Positions 1-22,858 of a stretch of 36,144 nucleotides of DNA are shown here, piece after piece; the stretch's first letter is position 1; every line of letters begins with the position of its first letter. The stretch is from contig NZ_CP013141.1 in assembly GCF_001442535.1 (NCBI RefSeq), positions 5,178,855-5,214,998 on the forward strand, written 5' to 3'. This DNA comes from Lysobacter antibioticus. Lineage in GTDB: Bacteria; Pseudomonadota; Gammaproteobacteria; Xanthomonadales; Xanthomonadaceae. Made by a program: the position numbers and the translations under genes. The notes beneath the pieces are model-generated. The model did not search any database, was not told the DNA's origin, and worked only from the letters and a program-made list of their open reading frames with translations.

Positions 1-60
1 GGCTTAGCAAAAGAAAGTAACCCGGCCGCGTCAGCGGACGGAAGCTCTGCTCTTGCTTGA
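1..60 (-). repeat. Fragment of hairpin element, type B, cut by window edge
   Basis: Bases 2-60 are the exact reverse complement of 18241-18299 (59 of 59). This is the head of the type B copy described at 18241-18480, in the opposite orientation. The match stops at base 61, and the rest of this copy would lie outside the window. It abuts the type A copy that starts near base 91. Confidence 0.85.
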
Positions 61-90: not shown

Positions 91-297
91 AGAGCTTCCG
101 CCACTAAAGCGGCGGGTTACTTTCTTTTGTCTAAAGCAACAAAAGAAAGGTAACCAAAGAAAAATGCTTTTCTTTGAATCACAAGCCCGCACGAGCGATG
201 CCGACGCAGGGATTTTTCATACGGGACATCCCTGTCCCGATGAAAAACGGCGCGCATCCCTGCGCGCCGCCCTCCGGGTCTGCCCTCGACCGGCAGA
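91..297 (+). repeat. Hairpin element, type A, copy 1
   Basis: Near-complete copy of a dispersed intergenic element. Four hairpins follow one another. The first is 115-155 (GGTTAC-TTTCTTTTG against CAAAAGAAAGGTAACC, one bulge). The second is 155-176 (9-bp stem, loop ATGC). The third is 213-247 (TTTTTCAT and CGGGACA against TGTCCCG and ATGAAAAA, one bulged A, loop TCCC). The fourth is 248-269 (CGGCGCGCA/TGCGCGCCG, loop TCCC). The conserved tail CCCTCCGGGTCTGC follows. Stretches 95-131, 136-177 and 209-250 are perfect reverse complements of 18020-18056, 17974-18015 and 17901-17942. I do not know a named family for it. Confidence 0.85.
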
Positions 298-2299: not shown

Positions 2300-3805
2300 A
2301 TGGCCCGATCGCCGAAGCAGTCCGATCGCCGCAAAGCGGCCAAGCCCGCCAAGCCCGGCAGCGGCTTGAAGCCGAGCTACCCCTATTACCTGGCCAACCG
2401 CCCGGTCGCCGCCAATACCGCCCTGGACGTGCTCGACAAATTCAGCGGCAAGCGCGCGACCCGGGTCGCGATGGCCGACGCCACGGCGGTGCGCAAGGCG
2501 ATCGTCGCCGCGCACAAGGCGCGCGAAGCGATGGCGGCGTTCACGCCCGACCGCCGTCGCGACGTGCTCGAGCACTGCGTGCGCCGCTTCAGCGAGCGCT
2601 TCGAGGAGCTCGCCTTGGCGCTGTGCATCGAAGCCGGCAAGCCGATCCGCGATGCCCGCGGCGAAGTCACCCGCCTGATCGATACCTTCCGCATCGCCGC
2701 CGGCGAGGCTACCCGCAGCGGCGGCGAGCTCATCGAACTGCAGATCTCCGAACGCACCCGCGGCTATCGCGGCATGGTCAAGCGGGTGCCGATCGGGCCA
2801 TGCAGCTTCATCACCCCGTTCAACTTCCCGCTCAACCTGGTCGCGCACAAGGTCGCGCCGGCGATCGCCGCGGGCTGTCCCTTCGTGCTCAAGCCGGCGA
2901 TCAAGACCCCGGTCGGCGCGCTGATCATCGCCGAGGTGCTGGCCGAGACCGACCTGCCCGAAGGCGCGTTCTCGGTGCTGTGCTGCTCGAACGAAGATGC
3001 CTCGCTGTTGGTCGAGGACGAGCGCATCAAGCTGCTGAGCTTCACCGGCGGCCTGATCGGCTGGGACCTCAAGGCACGGTCCGGCAAGAAGAAGGTCACC
3101 CTCGAACTCGGCGGCAACGCGGCCTGCATCGTCGATGCCGACCCGGGCGCGAGCCTGGACCACGTGGTCGAGCGGTTGGTGTTCGGCGCCTACTACCAAA
3201 GCGGGCAGAGCTGCATCAGCGTGCAGCGCATCTACGCCCACGCCGATATCTACGACAAGCTGCGCAAGAAGCTCAAGTCCGCGATCGCCGCCTTACGCAT
3301 GGGCGACCCGCGCGACGAGCAGACCTTCATCGGCCCGGTCGTCGACGTCGATGCCGCCAAGCGCATCGAGTCCTGGATCGACGCGGCGGTCAAGGGCGGC
3401 GCCAAGCGTATCGTCGCCGGCCCGCGCGACGGCAACATGATCCCCGCGACCTTGCTGGAGAAGGTGCCGCGCGACTCGGACCTATACCGCAAGGAAGTAT
3501 TCGGGCCGGTGGCGTTCATCGAACCTTTCGACGATTTCGACAAGGTCCTGACGACCGTCAACGACAGCGATTTCGGCCTGCAGGCGGGCGTATTCACCGG
3601 CCGCCTCGACCATGCGATGAAAGCCTGGGACCGGCTCGACGTCGGCGGTGTGATCGTTGGCGACGTGCCCAGCTTCCGCGTCGACAACATGCCCTACGGC
3701 GGCGTCAAGGATTCCGGCCTCGGCCGCGAAGGCGTGCGCTATGCGATCGAAGACATGAGCGAACAGCGGCTATTGGTGATCCGCGATCCAACCGAAGGTG
3801 CGTAA
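2300..3805 (+). CDS. NAD(P)-dependent aldehyde dehydrogenase
   Basis: A 501-aa member of the aldehyde dehydrogenase superfamily, oxidising an aldehyde to its acid. The substrate-anchoring Asn175 (PFNFPLN), general base Glu269 (LELGGN) and nucleophile Cys305 (GQSCIS) are present at the usual spacing. The nucleotide-binding turn reads FTGGLIG where FTGSxxxG is usual. The first 22 residues form an Arg/Lys-rich extension with no match to the core fold. The start is fixed by AGGAG about 8 nt upstream. It is the second gene of the operon with the thiamine-diphosphate enzyme, so it may oxidise an aldehyde made by that enzyme; this is inference. The family includes lactaldehyde and glyceraldehyde-phosphate dehydrogenases, and I cannot assign a substrate. 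Confidence 0.9.
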   Translation: MARSPKQSDRRKAAKPAKPGSGLKPSYPYYLANRPVAANTALDVLDKFSGKRATRVAMADATAVRKAIVAAHKAREAMAAFTPDRRRDVLEHCVRRFSERFEELALALCIEAGKPIRDARGEVTRLIDTFRIAAGEATRSGGELIELQISERTRGYRGMVKRVPIGPCSFITPFNFPLNLVAHKVAPAIAAGCPFVLKPAIKTPVGALIIAEVLAETDLPEGAFSVLCCSNEDASLLVEDERIKLLSFTGGLIGWDLKARSGKKKVTLELGGNAACIVDADPGASLDHVVERLVFGAYYQSGQSCISVQRIYAHADIYDKLRKKLKSAIAALRMGDPRDEQTFIGPVVDVDAAKRIESWIDAAVKGGAKRIVAGPRDGNMIPATLLEKVPRDSDLYRKEVFGPVAFIEPFDDFDKVLTTVNDSDFGLQAGVFTGRLDHAMKAWDRLDVGGVIVGDVPSFRVDNMPYGGVKDSGLGREGVRYAIEDMSEQRLLVIRDPTEGA

Positions 3806-16047: not shown

Positions 16048-17681
16048 GCCGGCAGCACCCGCTGCAGGACGAGGTCGAAATCCAAGCCCTCCGGCAAGGT
16101 GCCGAAAGCCAGGCCATGCTGCCCGCCGAGCCGGCTCGCGCAGAATGCCGGCGCCAGCGGGCTGCCGGCACGCAACAGCGTCGCCGCCTGCAGCGCTAGA
16201 GCGAGGCGCTCGGTCCATGCCCGCGCCTGCGCTTCGACCACTGGCGTTTGCCCGCTCAGGACCGCGCGTAATGGGTCGAGCCAAGCGTCGAACGCGGCGT
16301 TGCGGCCCGCGGCCGATTCGAGCTCGGTCAGCAAGGCCGCAGCGGTCTGCGGCTCGCGTGCGAGCGCACGCAGCACGTCGAGGCATTGGATGTTGCCGCT
16401 GCCCTCCCAGATCGAATTCAACGGTGCCTGCCGATACAGCCGCGGCAGGATCGATTCCTCGACATAACCCGCGCCGCCCAGGCACTCCTGCGCTTCATTG
16501 ACGAAGGCCGGCGCGCGTTTGCAGACCCAGTACTTGCCGATCGCGGTGGCGATACGCGCGAACGCCGCTTCGCCGGCATCGCCGCCGGCACGGTCGACCG
16601 CGCCGGCGACCCGGATCGCGAACTGGATCGCGGCCTCGGCTTCGAGCGCGAGATCGGCCAGGACGTTGCGCATCAGCGCGTGATCGAGCAGCGGCTTGCC
16701 GAAGCTGCGCCGATGGCGGGCGTGGTGCATGGCCTGCGCCAGGGCCATGCGCATTTCGCCGGCCGAGCCGAGCATGCAGTCCAGGCGGGTCAGCATCACC
16801 ATCTCGATGATCGTCGCCACACCGCGGCCTTCATCGCCGATGCGTTGCGCCCAGGCGCCCTGGAATTCGACTTCCGACGATGCGTTCGACCAGTCGCCGA
16901 GCTTGTCCTTGAGCCGCATCAAGCGCAGCGCGTTCTTGCCGCCGTGCGGATGCCAGCGCGGCATCAGGAAACAACTCAGCCCACCGGGCGCCTGTGCCAG
17001 TACGAGGAAGCCATCCGACATCGGCGCCGAGAAAAACCATTTGTGACCGACCAGTTCGTACTCGTCGCCGGACAAGGGCGTGGCAACGGTCTGGTTGGCG
17101 CGCACGTCGGAGCCGCCCTGCTTCTCGGTCATGCCCATGCCGAGGGTGAGGCCGGCCTTGTCGCCGAAGCCGACATCGCGCCCGTCGTAACTCGGCGTAG
17201 CGGCCTTGCGCGCCCACTCGTCCAGCGCCGGCGCGTGACGCAGCACCGGCGCGGCGGCGTGGGTCATGGTCAAGGGGCAACTGGTGCCTGGCTCGACCTG
17301 GTGATGCAGATAACTCAGCGCCGCGCGCGCGACAGGCGAGCCCGGACGAGGATCGTGCCAGGACAGGCCGGCCACGCCGTTTTCGATCGCGGCGCGCAGG
17401 ATCGCGTGGTAGTTCGGATGGAACTCGACCAGGTCGATGCGATGGCCTTGGGCGTCGTGGCTGCGCAGGCGCGGCTTGTCGCGATGCGCATCGAAGCTGA
17501 GGCGGTAGATCTCGTCGCCGGCGAGCGCGCCATAGCGTGCCAGCGCCTCGGCATGGCCGTCGCCGCCTTCGCGGCTTACCGCTTCGCGCAGCGCGATGTC
17601 GTCGCGCCACAGATCGCGCGGGGCGAACGGCGGCGGTTGATTCTCGACCCGATGGGTCGCGAACGGGGGCAGCGTATCCAT
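16044..17681 (-). CDS. AidB-like acyl-CoA dehydrogenase family protein
   Basis: A 545-aa flavoprotein of the acyl-CoA dehydrogenase superfamily. Its N-terminal extension, MTEKQGGSDVRANQT (184-198), the C-terminal NEAQECLGGAGYVEES and WEGSGNIQ (about 425-432) are typical of the AidB branch. E. coli AidB is an adaptive-response protein that binds DNA and FAD and has weak isovaleryl-CoA dehydrogenase activity; its real role is unsettled. The start at 17681 is preceded by ACGGAGAG at 8 nt. The L,D-transpeptidase gene is coupled downstream. Upstream lies the repeat-rich region 17682-18644, so its promoter should be within about 130 bp of the start, before the tandem repeat at 17816. Confidence 0.9.
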   Translation of the reverse strand: MDTLPPFATHRVENQPPPFAPRDLWRDDIALREAVSREGGDGHAEALARYGALAGDEIYRLSFDAHRDKPRLRSHDAQGHRIDLVEFHPNYHAILRAAIENGVAGLSWHDPRPGSPVARAALSYLHHQVEPGTSCPLTMTHAAAPVLRHAPALDEWARKAATPSYDGRDVGFGDKAGLTLGMGMTEKQGGSDVRANQTVATPLSGDEYELVGHKWFFSAPMSDGFLVLAQAPGGLSCFLMPRWHPHGGKNALRLMRLKDKLGDWSNASSEVEFQGAWAQRIGDEGRGVATIIEMVMLTRLDCMLGSAGEMRMALAQAMHHARHRRSFGKPLLDHALMRNVLADLALEAEAAIQFAIRVAGAVDRAGGDAGEAAFARIATAIGKYWVCKRAPAFVNEAQECLGGAGYVEESILPRLYRQAPLNSIWEGSGNIQCLDVLRALAREPQTAAALLTELESAAGRNAAFDAWLDPLRAVLSGQTPVVEAQARAWTERLALALQAATLLRAGSPLAPAFCASRLGGQHGLAFGTLPEGLDFDLVLQRVLPA

Positions 17682-17815
17682 GGCAGCGACTCTCCGTTGG
17701 GTTTATCTGGATTCTAGTGGGGTCTAGGCGGTGTGGCTCGCTGGTCCGGGAAACAGGGCGACCGCGAGACTCTAAGCCGGCGCGGCCCCTTACCTCGTAC
17801 CGTAGCCCCAGCCTT

Positions 17816-17839
17816 GGCTGTGGCTGTGGCTGTTGCTGT
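17816..17839 (-). repeat. Tandem hexamer tail (GGCTGT)n
   Basis: Three GGCTGT units and one TGCTGT unit. In the orientation of the neighbouring type A element this is an ACAGCC tail, matching the placement of the GACAAGC tail at 300-320 and the hexamers at 18509-18538. Confidence 0.7.
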
Positions 17840-17870
17840 GCGTCGCCTGGATCTAGCGAAGGCAATAGAA

Positions 17871-18060
17871 GGCCCGGAGGGCGGCCCGCATGGATGCGGG
17901 CCGTTTTTCATCGGGACAGGGATGTCCCGTATGAAAAATCCCCGCGGATGCATCGCTTGTGCGGGCCCTTGACTCAAAGAAAAGCATTTTTCTTTGGTTA
18001 CCTTTCTTTTGTTGCTTATGACAAAAGAAAGTAACCCGCCGCTTTAGTGGCGGAAGTTTT
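17871..18060 (-). repeat. Hairpin element, type A, copy 2 (inverted)
   Basis: Near-complete type A copy, reverse complement of 91-297. Perfect blocks of 42, 42 and 37 bp match 209-250, 136-177 and 95-131. The hairpin at 17882-17903 (CGGCCCGCA/TGCGGGCCG, loop TGGA) differs from its partner at 248-269 by paired changes that keep the stem. The hairpin at 17904-17938 is unchanged. Confidence 0.85.
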
Positions 18061-18121
18061 TAGCGTTTGATCTTGATCTTGATCTCGCTTCAGCGATGCG
18101 CCGCAAGACCGAATCAGCGCG

Positions 18122-18145
18122 GTCGCGGCTCGCGCCGCTCCTACC
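18122..18145 (+). repeat. REP-like palindromic 24-mer
   Basis: Third copy of the unit at 361-384, loop TCGC, followed by TCCTACC. It lies between the type A and type B hairpin elements. Confidence 0.75.
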
Positions 18146-18189
18146 CTGACGCACTGCCGCCGCCCTCGGCGCGAGATCGATGCAATGCG

Positions 18190-18213
18190 GTCGCGGCTCG
18201 CGCCGCTCCTACA
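18190..18213 (+). repeat. REP-like palindromic 24-mer
   Basis: Fourth copy, identical to 18122-18145 over the first 23 bases and ending in A. It stands 68 bp after the third copy in the same orientation. The whole stretch 17682-18644 consists of tandem tails, hairpin elements, REP units and the terminator of the cold-shock gene; I see no gene in it. Confidence 0.75.
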
Positions 18214-18240
18214 GGGGAAGGGTTCGCTACGCGCCCTTCT

Positions 18241-18480
18241 TCAAGCAAGAGCAGAGCTTCCGTCCGCTGACGCGGCCGGGTTACTTTCTTTTGCTAAGCT
18301 CAAAAGTCCGTCTGGATTCCCTTCGGTCAAAGCTAACCAAAGAAAAGGGCTCTCCTTGCAAGGGCACAGGCCACGAGTGCGATGCACGCGCCGGGATTTT
18401 TCGATAGGACATCCGTGTCCTATCGAAAAACGCCGCACGTCCTGTGCGGCGCCCTCCGGGTCTGCACTTGACCGGTAAAG
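18241..18480 (+). repeat. Hairpin element, type B
   Basis: Diverged copy of the same element. Its head (18241-18299) is repeated exactly and inverted at 2-60. It has a perfect 15-bp hairpin at 18397-18430 (TTTTTCGATAGGACA with TGTCCTATCGAAAAA, loop TCCG). A second one follows at 18431-18451 (CGCCGCAC/GTGCGGCG), then the same CCCTCCGGGTCTGC tail as type A. The middle is longer and less regular than in type A. Confidence 0.8.
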
Positions 18481-18508
18481 CGGCAAAGCAGATCAAAATC
18501 TCGGCAAG

Positions 18509-18538
18509 GACTACGGCTACGGCAACGACAACGCCTAC
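18509..18538 (+). repeat. Degenerate tandem hexamer tail
   Basis: Five hexamers in a row: GACTAC, GGCTAC, GGCAAC, GACAAC, GCCTAC. They follow the type B hairpin element, as tandem units follow both type A copies. Confidence 0.6.
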
Positions 18539-18560
18539 CGCTGCAGCCACCACTGCGCAC

Positions 18561-18592
18561 AAAGAAAAAAGGCCCCGCCGGAGCGAGGCCTT
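18561..18592 (-). terminator. Intrinsic terminator of the cold-shock gene
   Basis: On the minus strand a stem of about 10 bp (AAGGCCTCGC with GGCGGGGCCTT, one wobble pair) is followed by TTTTTTCTTT. It lies about 50 bp beyond the stop codon of the cold-shock gene and is the clearest intrinsic terminator in the window. Confidence 0.85.
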
Positions 18593-18644
18593 GGAAACTG
18601 TCCGATGCGATCGGGCCAGCCATTGCCCTCGAGGGGCAACGCAA

Positions 18645-18851
18645 TCAAACCACCGGAGCCACTTCGGACGCTTGTGCGCCCTTCGGACCCTGGGTCAGCT
18701 GGTAGCTGACGCGCTGACCTTCCTGCAGACTGCGAAAGCCTTTTGCGTTGATCGCGGAGAAGTGCACGAATACATCCGCGCTGCCATCTTCGGGAGAAAT
18801 GAAACCGAAGCCCTTGGCGTCGTTGAACCACTTCACGGTGCCGTACTGCAT
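18645..18851 (-). CDS. CspA-family cold-shock protein
   Basis: A 68-aa single cold-shock domain with both nucleic-acid-binding motifs, KGFGFI (RNP1, residues 13-18) and VFVHF (RNP2, 27-31). It binds single-stranded RNA and DNA and melts RNA structure. I chose the ATG at 18851 (MQYGTVKWF), the usual family start; GAGGT lies 11 nt upstream and AAGGA almost touches the ATG. A longer frame to 18929 would add a non-conserved stretch. A plausible promoter at 18921-18949 gives a leader of about 60 nt, and a clear terminator follows, so the gene is probably a single transcription unit. Whether it is cold-induced cannot be told. Confidence 0.95.
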
Positions 18852-22701: not shown

Positions 22702-22834
22702 CGCGCGACCGGATGCGTGCACTCCTGCCGGATCGCTATCCCGAACCGCCTGAGCCGGCGAACTACGCGCAGCTCCTCGCGGTCGGGAGCTGGGTCAGCT
22801 GCGATCCTGAAATCGTCGGCGCTGTCGGATCGCG

Positions 22835-22858
22835 GTCGCGGCTTGCGCCGCTCCTACC
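22835..22858 (+). repeat. REP-like palindromic 24-mer
   Basis: Fifth copy of the unit at 361-384, with the same TTGC loop, in the gap between two convergent genes. Confidence 0.75.

Follow-up and report, generated by a model that had tools for sequence, protein, structure and literature searches.

Lysobacter antibioticus and its relatives in the Xanthomonadales carry a dispersed repeat whose units of about 190 nt each contain two adjacent hairpins with strongly covarying stems and with loops that keep GGA on one strand. In its dispersal and its dimer form the repeat is BIME-like, and from sequence comparison we hold with moderate confidence that it carries an RNA module bound by RsmA (CsrA). 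According to this proposal the GGA strand of the element would encode a structured RNA whose two hairpins P3 and P4, spaced about 28 nt apart, both carry a CsrA/RsmA hexaloop (A-N-G-G-A-N with a C-G closing pair) and would serve the two faces of one RsmA dimer. This strand would be transcribed and bound by RsmA, and the many copies would either act together as a distributed RsmA decoy or each provide an RsmA site within its own transcript, for example at fliP-fliQ. Copies would have spread in some lineages and persisted by descent in others.

The window, the whole stretch of 36,144 nucleotides of L. antibioticus DNA that was analysed, contains a B unit, two A units that are nearly complete and part of a further B unit (Table 1). 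A sequence-only reading of this DNA had described two A copies and a diverged B copy that share one plan, and had quoted three stem versions. Indeed, the inverted arms 78-281 and 17870-18073 (204 nt, 91% complementary) are two A copies, the B copy at 18241-18480 shares their plan, and all three stem versions are present as quoted. Overlooked at that time was a perfect inverted match of window positions 2-60 to 18241-18299; the window start therefore falls inside a head-to-head B-A pair. On the TCC strand each unit (reference copies: A, 188 nt; B, 186 nt) runs through five hairpins, namely a GC hairpin and an A/T-rich hairpin followed, after some variable sequence, by P4, P3 and the CCC-TNC-GGG mini hairpin. 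The element had been called dispersed and intergenic, and it proved more extensive than described. The sequence AAAGAAAGTAACC occurs four times in the window at up to two mismatches, against 0.11 expected, and 102+92 times exactly in the whole genome, where the reversed control gives 0 and 1. In the 247 kb examined, 148 of 186 listed places hold a nearly complete unit (86 A and 62 B), the other 38 being partial copies or palindromic cross-hits, and the covariance model R1 finds at least 150 matches in the 5.77-Mb genome. A units were among the sequences used to build R1.

Table 1. Repeat units and their parts in the window (window coordinates; P4 and P3 are the upstream and second hairpins, respectively, of the sequence-only reading)
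Feature	Position	Strand	Evidence
Head fragment of B unit, cut by window start (GC hairpin and AAAGAAAGTAACC arm)	2..60	-	100% inverted match to 18241-18299
A unit, TCC strand on +, proposed RNA strand -	94..281	+	R1 match 208-281 on -, 98.2 bits
Head GC hairpin then T-rich tract, terminator-like in TCC direction	97..116	+	terminator scan, weak here
A/T-rich hairpin GGTTACTTTCTTTTG / CAAAAGAAAGGTAACC	115..155	.	sequence, folds
P4, stem TTTTTCAT-CGGGACA, loop on - ACAGGGAUGU	213..247	-	sequence, alignment
P3, stem CGGCGCGC, loop on - CAGGGAUG	248..269	-	sequence, alignment
P2 mini hairpin, CCC-GNA-GGG on -, N varies among copies and species	270..278	-	alignment
A unit, inverted	17870..18060	-	R1 match 17870-17943 on +
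P3, covaried stem CGGCCCGC/GCGGGCCG, loop ATGGAT	17882..17903	+	sequence, alignment
P4, loop ACAGGGATGT	17904..17938	+	sequence, alignment
B unit	18256..18463	+	R1 match 18392-18463 on -
23-nt insert GTCCGTCTGGATTCCCTTCGGTC within A/T hairpin arm of B unit	18306..18328	.	sequence, repeat counts
P4 of B, stem TTTTTCGATAGGACA, loop on - ACACGGATGT	18397..18430	-	sequence, alignment
P3 of B, stem CGCCGCAC/GTGCGGCG, loop on - CAGGACG	18431..18451	-	sequence, alignment

Hairpins were parsed at 461 candidate sites of L. antibioticus and its relatives, of which 338 passed and 123 were dropped for letters N or a poor hairpin; the 338 units contained 120 distinct P4 and 80 distinct P3 hairpins. The stems have been rewritten across species, reading for example TTTTTCAT-CGGGACA, TGCGCCAC-CGGGACA, GGTCCCAC-CTTGGGC and TTTTCCGAC-CGAGCC on the GGA strand. 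Two order-wide Infernal alignments, A3 (76 distinct rows, 96.1% of cells paired) and A2 (91 distinct rows, 98.2% paired), each had double changes at 20 of 22 pairs, and the only stem pairs invariant in them were two loop-closing C-G pairs. In A3 double changes filled 312 cells, as compared to nine for one-sided standard changes. None of 500 shuffles reached the values of A3 or A2 on any of five measures, and the slid controls of A3 were far lower. Fitting to the model biases both alignments towards structure; given the effect sizes and the slid controls, it is nevertheless unlikely to be the full cause of the covariation signal. Compensating changes among three copies had earlier been taken to mean that structure, not primary sequence, is kept. 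Three copies are too few to prove covariation, which the order-wide alignments do prove, and the absence of significant covariation from a wide alignment, named beforehand as the outcome that would speak against the element, is the reverse of what was found. The claim holds for the stems but is incomplete, since the GGA of the loops and the C-G pair that closes them are nearly constant. Both structure and loop sequence are conserved, and the informative strand is opposite to the one quoted earlier.

G.U occupied 11 of 1600 cells in A3, which is low for RNA and fits DNA palindromes, and this scarcity weighs against reading the element simply as RNA. In Xanthomonas a G.A mismatch frequently takes the place of one P3 pair (17 cells). 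An outer helix, P1, is strong in Xanthomonas as well as in genera g7 and g16, whereas most Lysobacter genomes did not exceed swapped controls; as a helix of the whole family it found no clear support, scoring over all species 16.1 for real against 14.3 for swapped arms (p 0.11).

The loops, which played no part in selecting the sites here, keep GGA almost throughout. TCC, the complement of GGA, had been noticed in both loops, and this observation was upheld in 329 of 338 P4 and 334 of 338 P3 loops. Read on the GGA strand, 328 P4 loops, 326 P3 loops and both loops of 322 units fit CA(N)GGA(N)G; in these 322 the two GGA start 28 nt apart in 245 cases and 25-29 nt apart in 319. CsrA/RsmA recognises an ANGGAN hexaloop closed by C-G, and SELEX has given a fuller form of the consensus. 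A spacing of about 28 nt would suit the two faces of one RsmA dimer. The mini hairpin P2 has a GNA loop, which is not GGA in every copy. At the shared Xanthomonas loci described below, 46 of 47 units keep both loops, and the N of P4 is U in 26, G in 17, C in two and A in two. ACA(N)GGAUGU fits 209 of the 338 P4 loops, the published RsmA consensus being ACARGGAUG (PMC3937308). Matches to CsrA (PF02599) are present in 56 of 60 genomes, including two in L. antibioticus; the second of these (G000:C1:4041669-4041818) is more diverged, and two to four CsrA-family matches also occur in five of the 19 other genomes of the genus that were searched. For RsmU, an RsmA-binding RNA of Xanthomonas, PMC7694677 reports that binding survived the mutation of all four GGA; the presence of GGA by itself is thus a poor predictor.

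The strand was read from wobble pairs, since a stem change that gives G.U on one strand gives A.C on the other. Among the distinct P4 and P3 hairpins, wobble favoured the GGA over the TCC strand by 22 to 5 (p 0.0015) and, by a looser grouping that is weakened by inflated genus labels, by 18 to 5 (p 0.011), in simple binomial tests. Within Xanthomonas the ratio was 10 to 1 for P3 and P4 (34 distinct rows) and 19 to 4 for P1 (p 0.0026, 31 distinct copies); a few of the P1 cells lie where the alignment overruns the helix, and the core comes to about 16 to 1 on reading. GTAG-type REPs, serving as a control, gave 2 to 1 in 21 distinct REPs, too few to decide. This bias points to a single-stranded form of the element, either RNA or single-stranded DNA. 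Computed folding energies fit either strand: a window unit folds to -102.9 on the GGA strand and -90.0 on the other (z -6.9 and -6.1), and a Xanthomonas unit to -105.4 and -105.3 (z -6.3 and -8.3). Gene orientation was rejected as proof of GGA-strand transcription, because genes reading into the elements run onto the GGA strand in 46 cases and onto the TCC strand in 49, which is no bias; read-through is not claimed. Where a unit stands alone, its GGA strand is often antisense to the preceding gene, as for five of six single units between co-directional genes that were read in the L. antibioticus genome and for the stretches read at Xanthomonas loci 3 and 4; at locus 2 it is antisense to the CusA-like gene on one flank. 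The putative RNA would therefore need its own promoter or convergent read-through; a scan for promoters of the sigma-70 type found none near the window copies.

At gathering thresholds Rfam had no match in the window and 20 loci. In a permissive cmscan with all 4227 Rfam families, run on three loci of the L. antibioticus genome and 12 loci of relatives, TwoAYGGAY or RsmW, of the RsmY clan, fell on the hairpins in nine of 15 loci, all below threshold. TwoAYGGAY (RF01731, clan CL00106) lay at P3-P4 on the GGA strand in seven of the 15, with a best score of 38.1 bits against a gathering score of 43. It was found in all three L. antibioticus loci (E 0.044, 0.058 and 0.11), whose A units are near-alike and so not independent, and in four of the 12 relatives' loci (L122, E 0.012; L108, 0.017; L119, 0.076; L205, 0.2). 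RsmW was found in two more (L226, E 0.092; L112, 0.86), and no family of the clan matched the remaining six (L239, L264, L228, L116, L199 and L117) at E values of 1 or below. Because no match reaches gathering, the units are not filed as a TwoAYGGAY member. Some other matches were set aside: one to RsmY in L064 lies on the csp terminator and was taken as chance, MIR1437 (E 8.8e-7, the best E-value among the relatives' loci) lies on another palindrome, and further permissive hits, to microRNA, IRES, istR, COG2908 and Mycobacterium sRNA families, fall off the units. The Xanthomonas sRNA model sX7 overlaps the unit start in L064 (E 0.24) and L004 (E 0.84).

TwoAYGGAY, proposed as CsrA-binding (PMC4333381) and reported from gut, gamma-Proteobacteria and Clostridiales (PMC2864571), likewise has two adjacent hairpins with A-N-GGA-Y loops, both of which are present in 322 of our 338 units, and in some members an outer helix, which in the units is clear for Xanthomonas, g7 and g16. 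Unlike it, the units form a repeat of at least 150 copies, mostly in inverted A-B pairs. Similarly, the decoys CsrB, RsmX, RsmY, RsmZ and RsmW carry several loop GGA per molecule in hosts with CsrA (in part from PMC4333381); they are single genes, whereas the units are a dispersed repeat, with no sigma-70-like promoter found at the window copies. RsmU (sRX061) of Xanthomonas campestris is a GGA-bearing RNA from the same bacterial family that was shown to bind RsmA, but in the account of PMC7694677 it derives from the comEA 3'UTR, is limited to Xanthomonas and is not described as a repeat. Among the titles and abstracts listed we found none that describes the repeat, and a text search of the literature for AAAGAAAGTAACC found no paper. 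Taken together, several features point to CsrA/RsmA: a GGA that stays constant next to a freely varying N, the C-G pair closing each loop, the distance between the loops, the preference of wobbles for one strand and the clan of the Rfam matches.

If this is so, a repeat family spreads target sites of a global RNA-binding protein through the genome, and the element may have gone unnoticed until now as an RNA partner of RsmA/CsrA. We propose more tentatively that the repeat could work as a genome-wide RsmA sponge, the well over 100 GGA double hairpins of a Lysobacter genome setting the level of free RsmA, with fixed sites in Xanthomonas that include fliP-fliQ. RsmA controls virulence and motility in Xanthomonas, where a homologue of rsmB is reported to be lacking (PMC3937308) and the usual CsrB/RsmXYZ RNAs are not known. 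A structured repeat that bears a pair of consensus RsmA loops and occurs in two families of the order makes a role as RsmA antagonist directly testable, and is also a candidate new RNA family with very strong covariation.

The covariance-model search of relatives that had been suggested for the copies found R1 matches across Lysobacter, Xanthomonas and the wider order. By BLAST, units are present in 43 of 100 genomes (L. antibioticus included) and in all 19 other genomes of the genus that were searched. R1 matched 132 of 247 genomes and 40 of 54 genera of the family and, across the order, 73 of 250 genomes, with 28 from the same family, 40 from family f12 and five weak ones elsewhere. Copy number reaches at least 150 at the upper end, while eight of 33 chosen genomes, including one of Xanthomonas, have a single match. 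Arrangement was scored in 64 clusters below 2.97 Mb, a less biased set found mainly through a 13-mer: 28 adjacencies were head-head, 24 tail-tail and four same-way, and 51 of the 56 joined A with B in opposite orientation. Head-head gaps are mostly about 47-62 bp, others reaching about 245 bp. The tail-tail gaps of the examples read contain GGCAAC-like hexamer runs, and hexamer or trimer runs (GGCAAC, CAACAG, GACAGC) recur on the tail side in both Lysobacter and Xanthomonas (L003, L005, L062, L258, L309), as if part of the element. Three R1 units of Xanthomonas maliensis (L255, 6264-7053) lie the same way, against the alternating rule.

Such dispersal introduces the main rival reading, a DNA-level palindromic mobile element that would be a large relative of REPs/BIMEs or of the terminal inverted repeats (TIRs) around Y1 transposases, in which hairpins would form in single-stranded DNA and a putative enzyme would read the loop GGA, with no RNA role. 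We regard it as rather unlikely, although the wide range of copy number, the rarity of G.U and the GNA mini-loop of P2, which would be very stable as DNA, all speak for it. As in REP/BIME families, the units are extragenic, high in copy, 3' of genes and, apart from the same-way trio, arranged in head-head and tail-tail heterodimers, and the opposite A-B pairing resembles that of REP dimers (PMC3733652). REPs of the GTAG and CGTC types, described there as 20-40 bp long, differ from these units, which have five hairpins and a length of about 190 nt. By eye, the P2-P4 alignment showed no GTAG tag, and none of 30 Y1-transposase (PF01797) loci, a subset of the matches to that family, carried a unit. 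Likewise, one A unit used as query had no match in plasmid and phage records. The earlier suggestion that the copies might be remnants of a known insertion sequence therefore finds no support as regards Y1 elements or these records; the Y1-transposase TIR families of Stenotrophomonas maltophilia (PMC3733652) were set beside the units by description, not by sequence.

Evidence on mobility itself differs between lineages. In Lysobacter the gap between csp and aidB has R1 matches in the L. antibioticus genome and its relative G017 only, of 20 genomes, the contig of G017 ending inside the unit. The two genes are neighbours in 13 of the 20, csp being not found in the other seven (the csp query had been translated in a wrong frame but still marks the conserved csp DNA), and they lie about 226-806 bp apart in 12 other genomes against about 917 in L. 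antibioticus; the gaps read in other genomes contain other repeats or little, and no clean empty site was made out among them. Such lineage-specific presence speaks for mobility. The gap (window 17684-18600; L322-L336) holds different repeat families according to Lysobacter species, among them A/B units, GGGAATC runs and TCATTCCCGCGAA palindromes, and is perhaps a repeat hotspot. For Xanthomonas, an exact-pattern scan of named genomes returned 65 stretches, 33 of them from this genus; the stretches were pattern-chosen, so absence elsewhere is not implied. By flank similarity, compared on one flank only for some pairs, 31 of the 33 fall into four shared loci of 14, 7, 5 and 5 genomes, two being unplaced. 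Locus 1 (X. euvesicatoria) lies between fliP, which scored above the model cut-off, and fliQ on the same strand, which matched clearly but below cut-off because its open reading frame was taken too long; both units are present as an inverted pair in 12 of the 14 genomes, and in Xanthomonas fliP and fliQ stand several hundred bases apart (L264, about 2907-3760, with its orthologues). Locus 2 adjoins a CusA/CzcA gene, and locus 3 lies between glutamine-synthetase-like and aminotransferase genes. These shared positions speak against ongoing mobility in Xanthomonas, and persistence there suggests use by the host; the units at the four loci keep the GGA and the wobble bias, neither of which mobility alone would need. 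The sequence-only reading had offered a mobile element or a structured RNA as alternatives. Both keep some support, mobility from the csp-aidB locus, and both may be true.

A second rival, that the hairpins merely end transcripts or, as proposed for REPs 3' of genes (PMC3733652), protect mRNA 3' ends, draws on gene context. Strands of flanking genes were called by a coding-strand prediction trained on 12 window open reading frames, for 84 clusters that cover part of the genome. In the 74 with both sides called, 42 pairs of genes were convergent, 30 co-directional and two divergent (42 to 2, binomial p ~1e-10), and the less biased subset gave 33, 22 and one. Terminator-like sites numbered six at 17680-18680, as compared to 1.3 in shuffles, with two of them formed by the A head hairpin, one per strand, and two by the csp terminator; at 1-620 there were two against 1.4, which is not above chance. 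We consider this explanation improbable, as it leaves the near-invariant GGA of two loops, beside a variable N and at a 28-nt spacing, unexplained, and strong termination within the fliP-fliQ pair would be expected to cut off fliQ.

Finally, the preponderance of double over one-sided changes, together with the matched stem versions of REPs in the same genomes (GCGGC/GCCGC in 196 and GCGAC/GTCGC in 51 of 259), could reflect template switching or repair between palindrome arms, which would make covariation uninformative on selection, but this is very improbable, since such repair would homogenise or free the loop, where GGA stays constant while N varies, and predicts no wobble strand bias, which is seen here (the small REP control aside).

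The proposed RsmA-binding module is accompanied in the window by smaller repeats. GTAG-type REPs (GGTCGCGGCTYGCGCCGCTCCTAC) lie at 18121-18144, 18189-18212 and 22834-22857 and, by eye, near 360-465, two of them within the spacer of the window A-B pair; the 259 of this form in the stretches examined from L. antibioticus and relatives mostly have two matched stem versions. A 23-nt sequence, GACCGAAGG-N-AATCC-NNNN-GGAC (window 18306-18328), has 103 exact pattern copies in the genome and sits within two unrelated repeats, namely A/B units, where it occupies the arm of the A/T hairpin, and GTAG REPs, where it lies in the loop, much as a miniature parasite of repeats would.
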